Assembly (NCBI GenBank): GCA_016177615.1
Contig: JACOUX010000035.1
Location: forward strand, 1 to 54,080
Reading direction: 5' to 3'
DNA from: Candidatus Woesearchaeota archaeon
Lineage (GTDB): Archaea > Nanobdellota > Nanobdellia > Woesearchaeales > GW2011-AR4
Length of the DNA stretch: 54,080 nucleotides
The position numbers were made by a program, and so were the translations under genes. The notes under the pieces are model-generated. The model ran no database searches. It was not told the origin of the DNA and worked only from the letters and a program-made list of their open reading frames with translations. How positions within the stretch are numbered: the stretch's first letter is position 1; each line of letters starts with the position of its first letter. Positions 10,132 through 54,080 of this stretch are shown here, piece by piece.

Positions 10132-11560
10132 TTAAATAGTCTTCCACCTAACTCCCTCTTTAGTATCCTCAAGAAGTATTCCCTTTTGCTTTAATTGGTT
10201 CCTTATTTCATCAGCTCTAGAAAAATCTTTTTCCTTTCTCGCCTTTTCCCTTTCGTCAATCAGTTTCTTCAGCTCTGGAGCCAATTCTTGCTCTTCTTCA
10301 TCGAGAATGCCAAGTACTTTGTCAATTTCATTCATAAACATGATTATTTTCCTTGCATCATTTTTTCCAATCTTGTTTTCCATCATCAAAGTATTTATTT
10401 GCTTGGCAAATTCAAAGACTGAAGCAAGAGCATTTGAAATATTTAAGTCATTATTCATTTCTTTTTCAAAGCTTTTTTTAGTTTTTTGAATTAATTTTTT
10501 TATTGTATTGTTTTTTATTGATTCATTCTTTAATGATTTTAAATTAACCATAAAATCTTTCAGCCTTTGGACTGCGTTTTCAGCAGCCTTGGCCGCTTCT
10601 TCCGTGAAGTTCAGCTGCATCCTGTAATGCGCTGACAGCAGAAGGTACCTTATGGCTTTTGGGTTGTATCCTTTCTGCAGCAAATCCCTTAATGTAAAGA
10701 AATTTCCTAGAGATTTGGACATTTTCTGCCCGTTAACAAGCAAATGCTCATTATGAAACCAGTAATTAACAAACTTTTTCTTTGTTGAGGCTTCGCTTTG
10801 CGCAATCTCATTCTCATGGTGCGGAAACACAAGGTCAATTCCGCCGGCATGGATGTCGAAGTGATTTCCTAAATATTTCATCGACATTGCGGAGCATTCT
10901 ATATGCCAGCCGGGCCTTCCGCGCCCGATTTCAGTTTCCCAGAAAACATTTCCGTCTTCAGCAGTGTAAGATTTCCACAATGCAAAATCCTTTGCCTCTT
11001 CTTTTTCGTAAGAATCCTGCTTGACCCTTGCGCCTTCTTTCAAAGACCCGACTTCTGTATGCGACAGCTTTCCGTAATCCTTGAATTTTGAAATGTCATA
11101 ATAAACGCTTCCGTCATCGCTTTTGTATGCAGTCTTGTTTTTCAATAATTTTTTAATTATCTCAACCATCTCCTTGATGTGCTCAGTAGCTCTTGGATAA
11201 ATGTCAGCCCTATCAATATTCAACGTTTCCAAATCCTCAAAGAAAGCTTTTTCATATCTTTGAGTGTATTCCTTTAAAGAAATCCCTTCCTTGTTTGCGC
11301 CTTTGATAGTTTTATCATCAACGTCAGTTATGTTCATGACGTGCTTGACCTTGTAGCCGGAATATTTCAAATAGCGCTTGAGGATATCACTACAGATGTA
11401 AGCCCTGAAGTTTCCAATGTGGGCGTAGTCATATACGGCATGCCCAAAACTACACTGTAATTTTGTTTGGCCCGCATGAATAAATGCCCACAAAGTTCTT
11501 CTTAATTGGCTTAAAGGCTTCTTTTTTCCTAGTTAGGGTATTGAATAGCTTTAATGCCAT
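10132..11560 (-). CDS. cysS: Cysteinyl-tRNA synthetase, reading frame interrupted by an apparent 28-nt insertion
   Basis: N-terminal segment from ATG 11560: [32 protein letters not shown]-terminal frame resumes [25 protein letters not shown]...[13 protein letters not shown]...KMSKSLGNF. The track ORF (10132-11493) is only the distal frame. Confidence 0.88.
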
Positions 11561-48210: not shown

Positions 48211-49050
48211 TTACAGCATAGGCAGGCTGTCAATCGGGCTTTTTGTGCCAATCATCTTGGGAGAGGCAATATGGAGATAGACCATTGTTGTCTCTGCGCT
48301 GCTGTGCCCGAGCAGTGACTGGACTTCTGCAACGCTGCTTCCGTTCTCTATGAGGTGCGTTGAAAAGCTGTGCCGCAAAGTGTGCGGATGGGCATGCTTG
48401 GATATTTCGGCGCTCTTCACTGCGTTTTTTATAATAGACCTTACGGACGCTGTTGTGAGGTGCCCGTTGAATCCCCTGAAGATATATGAATCAGAGGACG
48501 CGCATTCTTTTGAAATGTAATTTTTCAATTCTTCCCTGGTATTATCAGCTATGATAAACATCCTGTCTTTATTTCCCTTGCCGTGCCTCACCCACCCATA
48601 ACCATTTTCTATTTCCAGATGTTCCGGCTTGAGATGGACAAGCTCGCTTACCCTCAGCCCGGCAGAATAGAGCAGCTTTGCCATAAGCTTGTGCTTAGGA
48701 TTGCTTATTGAATTTATTAGTTTTACGATTTCTTCTTTAGTCAAAACTATTGGCAGAGCTTTGGGAGTTTTAGAGTACCTTATATTTATCATTAAGCGCT
48801 TATGCAATACACTGCCATAAAAAAACTTCAATGCGCTTAAGTTTACATTTATTGTGCTGCCGCATGCGCCTTTCTCAATCATTAAGTCAAGATAGGATTT
48901 TATATCTGCTTTCTTGATTTCATTCGGCTCCTTTTTGCACCAACTGAAAAATTTTCTGACACACTGCCTGTAAGTCTTTATGGTTTTGTGGCTTAATCCT
49001 CTTCTAAGACCTTCTTTTCTAAGCAATTCCGATACGTCCATTTTGATCAC
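48211..49050 (-). CDS. xerA: Tyrosine recombinase, Xer family
   Basis: AGLRVSELVHLKPEHLE, GKGNKDR, HTLRHSFSTHLIENGSSVAEVQSLLGHSSAETTMVYLH. Confidence 0.85.
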   Translation of the reverse strand: MIKMDVSELLRKEGLRRGLSHKTIKTYRQCVRKFFSWCKKEPNEIKKADIKSYLDLMIEKGACGSTINVNLSALKFFYGSVLHKRLMINIRYSKTPKALPIVLTKEEIVKLINSISNPKHKLMAKLLYSAGLRVSELVHLKPEHLEIENGYGWVRHGKGNKDRMFIIADNTREELKNYISKECASSDSYIFRGFNGHLTTASVRSIIKNAVKSAEISKHAHPHTLRHSFSTHLIENGSSVAEVQSLLGHSSAETTMVYLHIASPKMIGTKSPIDSLPML

Positions 49051-49080: not shown

Positions 49081-49124
49081 ATTTCACGCAGGCATGTCCA
49101 GTGCCCAGTGCTTAATTGCAATAT
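49081..49124 (+). repeat. Dispersed short repeat, copy 2
   Basis: ATTTCACGCAGGCATGTCCAGTGCCCAGTGCTTAATTGCAATAT; matches 43241-43284 with a few indels. Confidence 0.6.
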
Positions 49125-49564: not shown

Positions 49565-49678
49565 CTTTTTCTTATTTTCTTATTTTTCAGTCATAACGGA
49601 TTTTTGCCCTATGGGCATTGAAATTCAGCAGAATTAAGCCTTTATAACCATAAATCTGAGGACTTTAGGTTATAGGCT

Positions 49679-49932
49679 GTTATACTCAATTTTTTTCTTT
49701 AGTTTGAAATGCAAATATTTCAGTCGTCGCAAAAAATAACAACAAGGGCAGGCAAACACGGGTTTTCTTTGTGAAAACCCTATTCGCAAAGGAAATTCCC
49801 CACATTTCGCATGGGAAATTTCCTCTGCACTCAGTTTGCCGCCAATGTTATTTTTCGCTCCTACGCTGATTGCACTTCGTGCTTGCTGCATTTGCCAAAA
49901 GAACTAAAGAAAAATCGACAAAGGAGCATAAC
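49679..49932. repeat. Palindromic branched repeat element A
   Basis: Ends GTTATACTC / GAGCATAAC; outer stem TTTTTCTTTAGTT (49692-49704) pairs exactly with AACTAAAGAAAAA (49902-49914); nested hairpins GGGTTTTC/GAAAACCC and GGAAATTCCC/GGGAAATTTCC. Confidence 0.8.
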
Positions 49933-50008
49933 AACTGTTATATTGAATTATTACTCGGCATTTTTTCCTTTATTTCTTTGTGGATAAGTTTCACTTAAAC
50001 CATCTTGC
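49928..50008 (+). repeat. 81-bp exact direct repeat, left copy
   Basis: Identical to 54000-54080 (ATAACAACTGTTATATTGAATTATTACTCGGC...CATCTTGC). Confidence 0.95.
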
Positions 50009-50251
50009 AGCAGCAATAACGGCAGGCAAACACGGATTTCTTGGTGAAATCCTGCTCACAAAGGATTTTCCCCACACTTCGCATGGGAAAAATCCTCTGC
50101 ATTCGATTTGCCGCCATTGCTGCTGCTATGGAAAAAATGCCTGCGTCATAACTTTTCGGATTTTTTGGAAATCCTCAACCCTGCATCCTGATTTTTCCAG
50201 CTCTCGCTCACTATCGCTCGCAGAGGGAAAAATCGGGTAGGGCAATATAAC
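49937..50251. repeat. Palindromic branched repeat element B
   Basis: Ends GTTATATTG / CAATATAAC; GGCATTTTTTCC (49957-49968) pairs exactly with GGAAAAAATGCC (50130-50141); stem GCAGCAGCAAT / ATTGCTGCTGC; nested hairpins GGATTTC/GAAATCC and GGATTTTCCC/GGGAAAAATCC. Confidence 0.8.
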
Positions 50252-50342
50252 ACCGATTAAGTTCAATAATTTTTAGTGGCTAAACGTAGATAGGGGGACA
50301 TTTCTACGAAAGAAACTGAGGGGTGGGGCGAACGAAACAAAG

Positions 50343-51506
50343 ATGATGTTTAATATGAAAATTTATAAAGAAATCATACTTAGTAACATTATGAATAGGG
50401 TAATAAAAATACTGATTCCAACGATTGTCTCCTTAATTATAGCTACTTTTCTTTATGTTCTTAACTTATCTAACTGGAATAATTATGTGTTTATTCTTTC
50501 GTCAATAATACAAATATTAACCTTTGTATATTGGTTGATAGGAGACTCAAATCAAAAACAGATTATTGAAGCTGTATTAGGGACCAAAAACGACCTAAAA
50601 GAAACAAAGCAGATTGCACAAGAGGTTAGGGATTTCCAAAATCAAAAAGAGAGCCTTCTTGAGAAGAGACAAAAAATATTGGTTAACCTGTTCAAAAATG
50701 GAGCTATACAAACTATCGAGATTAACAAAATAATAAAATCAGTAAGAAATAAGGGTATGTTTGTGGTTTCAAGTTTTGGTGGGCATAATATGAAACTTAA
50801 AGGAGTCTTAAAAGCAATGAATAGTTCAGAACCAATATCGATTGTTCCAAACGTTCTGTATAATCTAGGTTTTAAGAAGGTATACTTTAATGAATTTATG
50901 TTTATTCTACTCAAAGAAGATCTACCCCCAAAACTAAGAAGTGCTGAGAAATTAAAAAAAATAATCTATGATGAATTAATTAATAAATGGACTTATCTAC
51001 AAAAAATAATAGTAGATAATAACTTCAAAAAATATGATAAGTGGAAAGATGGCAGCAAATTTTTTTGTAATCTTTGTTTGATTGATATAGAAGAAGGAGA
51101 AATGGGTATTCTCTATAAAAGACTTAAAGAAGCGCCAGAATTAAGAGATTCATTTTCGGAGGAATTCAAAAGTTTACTTTTGAGTCATTCAGACAAAATC
51201 CATATTGGTCAATTAATCAAAGATAAAATAAAAGCTAATCAAGTCTTGGATAAAATTACTATTGGTCTATTACTTAATAATCTACCAGAAGGGATAAAGG
51301 ACACTCTGCTTTTAAAAGAAAAAGAGATAATGACTCAACTTAAAATCAATAGATTTATTGATATTTCGAATATAACTGACCCAAATCTTAAAGATGTAAT
51401 AAAACAATATATTCCTGCAAATCAAGTTGAAGAAATATCCAAAAAAATCATGTCAGAAATAAAAGATTATGTGCAGATAGTGAGAGATTTAGAATTATTT
51501 CAATAA
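50343..51506 (+). CDS. Hypothetical membrane protein: two N-terminal TM helices plus large cytosolic domain
   Basis: VIKILIPTIVSLIIATFLYVLNL and YVFILSSIIQILTFVYWLIG followed by about 310 soluble residues. Confidence 0.6.
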   Translation: MMFNMKIYKEIILSNIMNRVIKILIPTIVSLIIATFLYVLNLSNWNNYVFILSSIIQILTFVYWLIGDSNQKQIIEAVLGTKNDLKETKQIAQEVRDFQNQKESLLEKRQKILVNLFKNGAIQTIEINKIIKSVRNKGMFVVSSFGGHNMKLKGVLKAMNSSEPISIVPNVLYNLGFKKVYFNEFMFILLKEDLPPKLRSAEKLKKIIYDELINKWTYLQKIIVDNNFKKYDKWKDGSKFFCNLCLIDIEEGEMGILYKRLKEAPELRDSFSEEFKSLLLSHSDKIHIGQLIKDKIKANQVLDKITIGLLLNNLPEGIKDTLLLKEKEIMTQLKINRFIDISNITDPNLKDVIKQYIPANQVEEISKKIMSEIKDYVQIVRDLELFQ

Positions 51507-51568
51507 AGTGGTATACTGATAATATCTTCTTTTCAGAAGTAAAAAAATGAAACGAGTTGGGAGAGTTC

Positions 51569-52162
51569 TTAACTATGAATATATGCGCTTAATATTTCAG
51601 AAGGGTTACCTATTCTTTTTTCATTTTTTAAATGAGAAATATCAATAACTGCCCCATGTTTAATAAATTCATCATAAAACTTATTATATTCCTTACCCCA
51701 GTATATCATCGCACATGACATTGGAGCACCTTTACCAGTGCTATTGCCATTTTCCAAAAACTTTAAACGAGTATCAAATAAAAAGCAAATGGCTTTTGCC
51801 CTGCCATAAACACTTTTTTTCCAATGACCTGTATTTGTTGCAACTGGTACTAACGCAATAACTTCTGAACCATAATTTTCATGCGCTTTTGCACATTTTT
51901 CTAACCAATGTTTAATAGACGTTTCACTGTCTTTATTCCTACCATAGGGTGGATTAACATAGATGCTAGGGAATTTCCATGATTCAATCAATCCATTTTT
52001 TTTGGGCAGGCTGTACTCTACTTCAGCATTAACAATGGAAAACTCATTAGAACATGGATCTAAATGTATCTTTCCACTAAAAACTTTCTTAACTGCATCT
52101 ACATACTTTTTAGGGGTACACCAATCCTTACTTTTTGAATTGATATTTCTTCCAGCTGTCAT
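51569..52162 (-). CDS. Phage-type DNA N6-adenine methyltransferase (Dam-like)
   Basis: DWCTPKKYVDAVKKVFSGKIHLDPCSNEFSIVNAE...SIYVNPPYGRN...; DPCS and NPPYG catalytic motif. Confidence 0.82.
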   Translation of the reverse strand: MTAGRNINSKSKDWCTPKKYVDAVKKVFSGKIHLDPCSNEFSIVNAEVEYSLPKKNGLIESWKFPSIYVNPPYGRNKDSETSIKHWLEKCAKAHENYGSEVIALVPVATNTGHWKKSVYGRAKAICFLFDTRLKFLENGNSTGKGAPMSCAMIYWGKEYNKFYDEFIKHGAVIDISHLKNEKRIGNPSEILSAYIHS

Positions 52163-52234
52163 TTTATCTCCATTATTGAGTATATGATTAAGTATTTAAA
52201 TTCTTTTTGATTGTTGGTAACTAATTGGTAAATA

Positions 52235-52260
52235 AGTATATATTTAGTGGTATATATACT
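52235..52260. promoter_or_regulatory. Candidate operator: perfect 9-bp inverted repeat
   Basis: AGTATATAT-ttagtggt-ATATATACT, immediately upstream of the winged-helix gene and in its divergent promoter region with the methyltransferase. Confidence 0.5.
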
Positions 52261-52268
52261 TTTCGATT

Positions 52269-52523
52269 ATGAATAGCAACATGGCACTAATAGGTTACAT
52301 CAAAGCGAGTAATTATAGAATTGAACTACTTAAAAAGTTAATTGAAAAACCATTTACCCCTACCGAACTTGCGAATTCAACTAAAATAAATAAAGGTCAT
52401 GTTAGTAGGACACTAAAGGAACTCTGCGAGAAAAAACTTGTGGAGTGTGGCAACGAAGAAGCAAAAAAAGGGAGAATGTATTTGATTACTGAATTAGGTA
52501 AGAAAATAATAAAGGAATTATAA
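52269..52523 (+). CDS. Winged-helix (ArsR/MarR-like) transcriptional regulator
   Basis: ELLKKLIEKPFTPTELANSTKINKGHVSRTLKELCEKKLVECGNEEAKKGRMYLITELGKKII. Confidence 0.75.
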   Translation: MNSNMALIGYIKASNYRIELLKKLIEKPFTPTELANSTKINKGHVSRTLKELCEKKLVECGNEEAKKGRMYLITELGKKIIKEL

Positions 52524-53669
52524 ATTTGAGATAACCAGTGAATTGTTGATTTTACTTATTTTTTTAAAGTTTAGGTCTTCAATGTCATAGAATATTGCAT
52601 TTTTGTTTTCGGATATTATTTCTTGAATAAGTGTTTTAACATCTTTGTTTGTCTTTAGTGCATCTTTACTGATGAACTTTAAGAAGTCATCACCAAATTT
52701 TTTGTGAAATTTCTTAAATGCTTCAATGATTATATAATCTGGAACAACCAAATTATGGTCAATTGTTTTTGTAACAACCTTTCTTGATTTATCTTCCCAA
52801 TGTGAAACTTCTCCAATTACAAGTATCGGTGTAAAATTGTCCGTTTCTTTCTTTTCTTCTTTACCCCATTTACCAATACGTTTTTTTCTGACATCTAAAG
52901 CAACTAATGCTGATTGTTTAGCTTTTTCTATTGTCTGTGGTCCAGTTAAACAAGTTTCTATTTTGAAAAAAGTTTTGTTTTGTATTTTGGTAAGGGTAAA
53001 AACATGGCATAACCTTACTTTTTCTGAAAGATCTATCAACTTGTTTTCTGGTTTAATAATCCTTACTGTTCCATTTTCAACCAGCGTGATTAAAAACCTC
53101 TTATTGACAGAAATCTCAAATTTTTCATCAATCAGATTATTTTTCTGTTTAGAAGATTCTTCTTCATTGGCATTTTTTGAAGTAATGTGAATTTCTGCAT
53201 TATTGCCAGAAATTTTTTTACACACGATGTTAATTTTTATCTCTCTGTCTAACCATCTTGGATTTATGTTATGTTGGTAGGCTTCATTTACGCCCAATTG
53301 TAAATCTTGATATCTCGTCTCGGCATGAACAGTTACCTCAACACCAACTTTTTTACATTCAATGAAACCTATGAGATTATTTTGGTCAATATCATCATTC
53401 TTATCAACAGTAAAATTTCCATTTTTATCTAACTTAAAAAAACTGAATTCAACTTTATGTTTTGCTCCAGTAAATCCTTCTAATGATAATTCGGTTTGCA
53501 TGGAGTTTAATAAATCTTGGGAAGAATGACAATAGCCCATTATTACTATTTCTAACATATCTCCTATTTTTCTTCCAATCTGATGTCCTTTTTTTCCAAA
53601 TTGTTCTATGTAAACATATACATCAGATAAATACTCAAAATCTCTTGAATCGTTAAATTTCATTGACAT
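52518..53669 (-). CDS. Putative restriction-endonuclease-like protein (PD-(D/E)xK-type core suspected)
   Basis: Contains KVEFSFFKL...LIGFIECKKVGVEVTV (ExK-like motif after a beta-strand-like segment); located with a methyltransferase and an HTH gene. Confidence 0.45.
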   Translation of the reverse strand: MSMKFNDSRDFEYLSDVYVYIEQFGKKGHQIGRKIGDMLEIVIMGYCHSSQDLLNSMQTELSLEGFTGAKHKVEFSFFKLDKNGNFTVDKNDDIDQNNLIGFIECKKVGVEVTVHAETRYQDLQLGVNEAYQHNINPRWLDREIKINIVCKKISGNNAEIHITSKNANEEESSKQKNNLIDEKFEISVNKRFLITLVENGTVRIIKPENKLIDLSEKVRLCHVFTLTKIQNKTFFKIETCLTGPQTIEKAKQSALVALDVRKKRIGKWGKEEKKETDNFTPILVIGEVSHWEDKSRKVVTKTIDHNLVVPDYIIIEAFKKFHKKFGDDFLKFISKDALKTNKDVKTLIQEIISENKNAIFYDIEDLNFKKISKINNSLVISNL

Positions 53670-53999
53670 ACTTCAAGCGTAGTATCCACTTATTAAATAG
53701 ATTTATACCACTTAGTTACCACGCAAAACTAACGCCCCACCCCCTACGACTAACTAACGAAACGACTGAAACGAAATGTCCCCCTTGATGTTTGTTCTTG
53801 ATTGCTCACTTTGTTCGCTGGATTGAACACGAGCCACTAAAAATTACTCTGCGGACGCAGGTTTCCAGAACTTCGTAACTGGAAACGAACTTAACAAGAA
53901 TTATATTTAATTCTTCACAATGGCTCTCGCCTTGTTCAGAACTCGAAACCTTTAATCTCAGGCAAGCTGAGTTAAAGCTTTCGCCCTTGCGAGGGAAAT

Positions 54000-54080
54000 A
54001 TAACAACTGTTATATTGAATTATTACTCGGCATTTTTTCCTTTATTTCTTTGTGGATAAGTTTCACTTAAACCATCTTGC
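54000..54080 (+). repeat. 81-bp exact direct repeat, right copy (start of a second element B, cut by window edge)
   Basis: Identical to 49928-50008. Confidence 0.95.

Follow-up and report, generated by a model that had tools for sequence, protein, structure and literature searches.

The window analysed here is a whole contig of 54,080 nucleotides (JACOUX010000035.1) of the 1.54-Mb genome of a Candidatus Woesearchaeota archaeon (G000; relatives are labelled G###, loci L### and contigs C##). Toward its right end, it carries a gene for a XerA-type tyrosine recombinase, a site resembling the attI site of integrons and an array of cassettes, the third of which holds four genes between mirrored ends (Table 1). 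We propose that this third unit, cassette 3, is one cassette of an integron-like platform run by the dedicated XerA-type recombinase, and we assign this reading a probability of about 0.8. Direct support comes from the anatomy of the locus, the cassette arrays, the attI-like site, the matched cassette ends, the empty platform sites, the turnover of cargo and the existence of a dedicated recombinase clade.

The cassette array and its relatives

In a first-pass annotation, three sequence blocks had been described as flanking a defence-like island, in order on its left and mirrored on its right. This arrangement is exact: TAATTTTTAGTGGCT lies at 50267-50281 and 53832-53846, AGGGGGACATTTC at 50292-50304 and 53773-53785 and GGGGTGGGGCG at 50320-50330 and 53733-53743. 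Each has only these two copies in the window, and the 15-base block TAATTTTTAGTGGCT has no further copy in the genome. A fourth, outermost block had been overlooked, i.e. TTAAGTTC at 50257-50264 with its complement GAACTTAA at 53887-53894. The element extends from 50257 to 53894 (3638 bp), and its real ends are 10 bp (left) and 48 bp (right) further out than the limits of 50267-53846 originally drawn; the 64 bp and 114 bp that had been taken for spacers are the full extents of the two ends. Exact words that the ends share in order add up to a chain of 47 nt, compared to 27 nt for the best of 3000 random placements in the window.

Table 1. Recombinase gene, attI-like site, cassettes and cargo genes in the window
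Feature	Position	Strand	Description
XerA-type tyrosine recombinase gene	48211..49050	-	279 aa; reads away from the array
attI-like site	49641..49691	+	right arm of the core begins at 49680; conserved with G001, G002 and G013 up to the arm
Cassette 1	49680..49931	+	without long open reading frame (ORF); common to G001 at 97%
Junction GAGCATAA CAACTG TTATATTGAAT	49924..49948	+	dif-like pattern
Cassette 2	49938..50250	+	without long ORF; own arms agree 8/8
Junction CAATATAA CACCGA TTAAGTTCAAT	50243..50267	+	left boundary of cassette 3
Cassette 3, left end	50257..50330	+	arm and blocks 1-3, hairpin-free; in about 20 other genomes
Predicted membrane protein, family unknown	50343..51506	+	387 aa; no Pfam match at cut-off; weak TIGR04402, E 0.012
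Dam-type N6-adenine methyltransferase	51569..52162	-	PF05869 2.7e-16; PADLOC oMTase 6.6e-15
Winged-helix regulator	52269..52523	+	84 aa; PF25213 and PF01022 above cut-off
Type II restriction enzyme-like protein	52518..53669	-	383 aa; PADLOC REase_II 3.7e-54
Cassette 3, right end	53733..53894	-	arm, hairpins hpA and hpB, block 1, hairpin hpC, block 2, block 3
Junction GAACTTAA CAAGAA TTATATTTAAT	53887..53911	+	right boundary of cassette 3
Cassette 4	53901..54003	+	103 bp, without ORF; own arms agree 8/8
Junction AAATATAA CAACTG TTATATTGAAT	53996..54020	+	dif-like pattern
Cassette 5, start only	54010..54080	+	same sequence as start of cassette 2; contig end

The outer 8-mers of cassette 3 are arms of dif-like sites. 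These sites consist of two inverted 8-bp arms around a 6-bp spacer and recur along the locus as the boundaries between consecutive cassettes, and all sites within one array share one polarity; in some lineages, the spacer is 5 nt or is stretched to about 15 nt. The array continues on contig C32, ahead of secE-nusG, and the 81-nt perfect repeat at the end of the window is present because cassette 5 begins like cassette 2. As had been suggested, the element is mobile but non-autonomous, and its ends are composite; it is not a free-standing island or transposon, however, but the third cassette in an array of head-to-tail units. As had also been noted, there is no transposase between the blocks, and the gene of a tyrosine recombinase is located 1.2 kb further left. 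Because this gene adjoins the attI-like site from which the array begins, the neighbouring recombinase, which had been suspected from the outset, probably mobilises the element.

The ends form a family across relatives. In a search with the left flank that covered 147 related genomes, the left-end sequence was found in many genomes of the order, and their alignment yields GTTAAGTTCAATAATTTTTAGTGGCTAAACGACTGATAGGGGGACATTTC; the right end recurs in about 30 places. Paired ends enclose elements of 1 to 4.5 kb with differing genes, and a check that had been proposed, for such ends around other gene sets, was positive in about 20 genomes of the order. At L110, L118, L130 and L140, a right end is directly followed by the next left end, from which we conclude that the elements are arranged in tandem, head to tail; tandem cassettes with sites in the same orientation are also what defines the array of an integron. 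Relatives keep the layout with other cassettes and other block sequences. A clean case is L155 (12605-20692, reverse complement), on a 209-kb contig of a distant woesearchaeote, where eight sites share the constant spacer CATCG and two methyltransferase cassettes are nearly identical, which suggests a recent duplication.

The mirrored ends, the transposase-free interior and the recurrence of the same ends around different genes could also be explained by a non-autonomous transposon or an island resembling a miniature inverted-repeat transposable element (MITE), with composite terminal inverted repeats and moved in trans by a transposase. However, one transposase would need constant ends, while the blocks differ among cassettes and match only within a cassette; the three blocks were discarded as constant transposon ends for the reason that in other cassettes the same layout is made up of different sequences. 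Moreover, adjoining units have one dif-like site with a 6-bp spacer in common, where transposons would show separate ends and target duplications; no such duplication was seen, and the arrays begin at a constant position next to a recombinase gene. The combination of constant ends and target-site duplication that marks such transposons and MITEs is not found here, and we consider this explanation very unlikely.

Three further observations concern array-like sequences. Weaker matches to the dif-like pattern occur on contigs C43, C61 and C59. At L029 (about 10300-10735, minus strand), a part of the array near secE-nusG contains, as judged by eye, a broken frame of an IS200-type transposase. In L030 (G000:C59 19957-19997), 41 bases match the interior of the right end at 95% identity, and no complete end is present; this piece is possibly a decayed cassette.

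Matched ends and the predicted fold of the joined ends

The arms vary between cassettes (e.g. TTATATTG, TTAAGTTC, TTATACGC and TTAAATGC), while the left and right end of a cassette match in the arm, block 1 and block 2. Arms of one cassette agree at 77 of 95 variable positions, compared to a shuffled mean of 49.6 and with none of 100,000 shuffles as high; by contrast, arms across one genomic junction agree at just 66 of 130 positions. Similarly, ordered exact words common to a cassette's own ends sum to 480 nt with a shuffled mean of 116. The positions of the blocks are largely fixed: block 1 usually starts at +10 in the left end and at +46 to +50 in the right end, and block 2 at about +29 to +37 and at +98 to +120, respectively. 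In other words, the sequence varies freely within a constant layout, as would be expected if selection acted on base pairing.

A strict scan for matched arms plus block 1 gave 33 matches in 764 kb, a few of which look like chance or duplicates, and none in three shuffled versions or in the reversed sequence. It replaced a loose scan for matched arms, which was discarded with 126 matches in reversed sequence versus 120 in the real one. These zero controls, the random placements and the recurrence in many genomes bear on the simplest alternative, namely that the blocks are chance inverted words or ordinary promoter or terminator elements that stand alone. The sequence is AT-rich and two of the blocks are G-rich, as such an origin might lead one to expect; nevertheless, the three lines of evidence exclude it in practice, and we give it almost no credence.

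We folded right end, spacer and left end as joined in a circle for 26 cassettes as single-stranded DNA. A cassette's own joined ends have a mean predicted energy of -35.7 kcal/mol versus -18.6 kcal/mol for the right end with its real downstream neighbour (Wilcoxon p 3e-8), and for 25 cassettes the best partner among the 26 left ends is their own. In the predicted fold, blocks 1 and 2 form a long stem that closes a four-way junction with three hairpins, i.e. hpB, hpA and the dif-like core with the spacer as its loop. The right ends carry strongly covarying hairpins between the blocks: for hpA and hpB in 19 right ends, 95% of cells are paired, compared to 25-56% when the positions are slid, and double changes number 40 versus 11.7 in shuffled data. 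Because the two halves of the site are apart in the array, local formation of this cloverleaf is restricted to the circle.

Long palindromic repeats, each about 110 nt in length and enclosing two hairpins, are also dispersed in these genomes. Two copies lie in the window (49736-49853 and 50010-50125), neither with a match in Rfam, and further copies in G000 are at C22 20395, C31 40153 and C59 13810 and 13955. Their sequence varies while the palindrome is kept, and they occur genus-wide, also outside arrays. One of their hairpin loops (AGAACTTCGTAACT) resembles the loop of hpA.

The recombinase, the attI-like site and the platform

The window recombinase matches the profile NF040815 (recomb_XerA_Arch) with 225.6 bits, above the cut-off of 220, and the catalytic residues R133, K158, H223, R226, H249 and Y258 are present and invariant across eight relatives. 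The integron integrase profile TIGR02249 is second best with 191 bits, below its cut-off of 265. In an alignment to VchIntIA (2a3v), about 42 residues are absent at the position of the IntI-specific domain, and this segment has 31-37 residues in the window clade versus 76-77 in true IntIs from the same search. The window recombinase falls into a clade of 19 members (support 100/100) that sits beside cassette arrays and is separate from the IntIs as well as from the genome's other Xer on contig C35. The latter is more widespread, whereas the window Xer is patchily distributed, with named relatives mainly in Woesearchaeota and other DPANN archaea. Viral contigs contained nothing above 38% identity to the clade, and a viral origin is therefore unsupported. 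A second Xer lineage (about 37% identity) adjoins cassettes with the same kind of ends (G065:C33 939-1700 and G075:C31 2173-2934), and the cassette design may thus be common to more than one recombinase lineage.

A tandem motif similar to TGTCCAGTGTCCAGTG lies just upstream of the recombinase gene (window about 49095-49110). It is found 40-60 bp before the start codon in most of the close members of the clade and in several of the distant ones, with a copy in G000 on C22, and is possibly an operator or an accessory binding site.

The sequence beside the recombinase gene is kept in G000, G001, G002 and G013 as far as GACTTTAGGTTATA with a few further bases and TTATA. Beyond this attI-like site, the first cassettes differ in G002 and G013 and are common to G000 and G001. 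The site is about 630 bp from the start codon of the recombinase in the window, and a similar site is about 130-250 bp from it at the loci of distant relatives. A fixed attI-like pattern was found at 7 of 10 of these loci versus 4 of 23 loci of other Xers. Thus, as in integrons, an attI-type insertion point adjoins the recombinase gene. At L163, in a Patescibacteria metagenome-assembled genome, an attI-like motif and one possible matched-end element lie beside an Xer annotated as bacterial; this weak signal may be due to chance or mis-binning, and we do not claim a Patescibacteria array from it.

The platform, i.e. the recombinase gene and the array, lies between ftsZ and secE-nusG in G000 and G001. 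The two G001 contigs overlap by 116 bases and are therefore adjacent, with a complete array between them. Fifteen genus-mates have secE directly next to ftsZ, at a distance of 38 to about 820 bp, as expected for an empty platform site; in G012, ftsZ is followed by a remnant of the recombinase gene, and in G013 the platform is elsewhere on the contig. Empty sites, which had been named as a check on mobility, were accordingly found for the whole platform but not for cassette 3 alone.

Integrons of archaea with IntI, attI and attC cassettes have been described (Ghaly et al. 2022, PMC9668308), and it has to be considered whether the window contains a classical archaeal integron with an integrase and attC sites too diverged for recognition. 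The overall layout is the same, with a tyrosine recombinase gene facing away from a head-to-tail array, an attI-like site alongside, structured sites of variable sequence, mobile accessory cargo and cassettes that also occur away from the recombinase gene. In addition, the integron integrase profile scores second, and the junction arms contain AAC and GTT, as attC boxes do. However, the XerA-type recombinase lacks the IntI-specific domain and belongs to its own clade. The junction arms are 5-6 nt apart rather than placed around a long hairpin as in attC, and the paired parts lie outside the core; the palindrome is divided between the two cassette ends and has the core in its middle, not at its base. 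We sought attC arrays beside the true IntIs as a control and found none, and the comparison with attC consequently has no positive control. With both the IntI-specific domain and the attC site lacking, we class the system as integron-like and built on XerA, and regard a diverged classical integron as highly improbable.

A proposed mechanism for gene capture, and its cargo

In the mechanism that we propose for the integron-like platform, the XerA-type recombinase would recombine dif-like sites such that circular cassettes are added at the attI-like site and later removed. On insertion, the dif-like core of the circle would be joined with either the attI-like site or a junction within the array. 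Each cassette end would be a half site, with an arm and blocks on the left and the mirrored arm, blocks and hairpins on the right. Once joined in the circle, the ends would make up a foldable cloverleaf with a perfect dif-like core at its tip, and insertion would part the halves again; the circle alone would therefore carry a palindromic core on a foldable structure. The substrate could be either a folded strand, as for attC, or the double-stranded core with the fold serving polarity or control. We infer that the window recombinase acts on these dif-like sites and that cassette circles exist; excision, capture and single-strand recognition would follow the same scheme. The odds that the folded form is recognised, beyond the double-stranded core alone, appear about even. 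The full scheme, i.e. XerA-derived gene capture that is independent of IntI, with a single-stranded cloverleaf site that exists only in the circle, is halved on insertion and confers built-in polarity and perhaps one-way capture, is tentative, and we rate its chances as slightly short of even.

Several points weigh against our interpretation. No excised circle, recombination or read-level variation was seen. Most of the genomes are fragmented assemblies, and contigs often stop inside arrays. Ends of the same type are found in genomes without the window recombinase clade, some of them beside another Xer lineage. The shuffle tests take no account of relatedness. Of the 26 folded cassettes, 21 were defined by consecutive junction sites, and the remaining 5 were selected partly by their matched ends. 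Finally, the folded core pairs its two arms together and is not an obvious Xer substrate.

Among the closest known systems are pdif (dif) modules, which are gene segments between dif-like sites that are moved by Xer recombinase in Acinetobacter plasmids (PMC6449649). If the units described here were such modules, shuffled as double-stranded DNA, the blocks and hairpins might serve, for instance, insulation or transcription termination. The Xer-type recombinase, the gene segments bounded by dif-like sites and the 6-bp spacer agree with this. However, pdif modules as described have neither a fixed attI-like start with an ordered array nor covarying, matched ends with hairpins nor a single polarity of sites, and they are plasmid-borne and rely on the host XerC/XerD pair, while the system here is chromosomal between ftsZ and secE with a dedicated, single Xer clade. 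On balance, this alternative seems unlikely. Archaeal Xer/dif chromosome resolution is similar in recombinase family and site layout, the archaeal dif having two inverted arms and a 6-bp spacer (PMC2958812); it differs in that the window Xer is patchy and beside a cassette array with many sites, and that the genome has another Xer on C35.

Integrons are tied to IntI, whose extra domain handles folded attC sites. Here, by contrast, a XerA lineage without this domain adjoins arrays whose ends covary as if pairing. This suggests that a circle-form cloverleaf made from matched ends is a second, independent way to build integron-like gene capture. If true, the integron principle arose on two or more occasions, and small-genome DPANN archaea would possess a gene-exchange platform of their own, with restriction-modification, toxin-antitoxin-like and enzyme genes among its cargo. 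We found no description of this system among the open-licence PMC papers searched, which included one paper on archaeal integrons, i.e. the one cited above.

The cargo of cassette 3 is probably a restriction-modification system. As judged from profiles only, a restriction enzyme gene adjoins a DNA methyltransferase gene, as in type II systems, and the match to REase_II together with the orphan Dam-type methylase upholds the defence-like content proposed in the first-pass annotation. Neither the restriction enzyme nor the methylase has a relative among 193 other genomes, although the cassette ends occur across the order, and the restriction enzyme has no relative in PDB or in phages. Elsewhere, the cassettes carry Mrr-type nuclease, ParE-like, HEPN-like and Ig-domain proteins in one set, and PIN and RHH proteins, a ParE-like protein, a methyltransferase, a peptidase S66, an AAA kinase and LemA in another.

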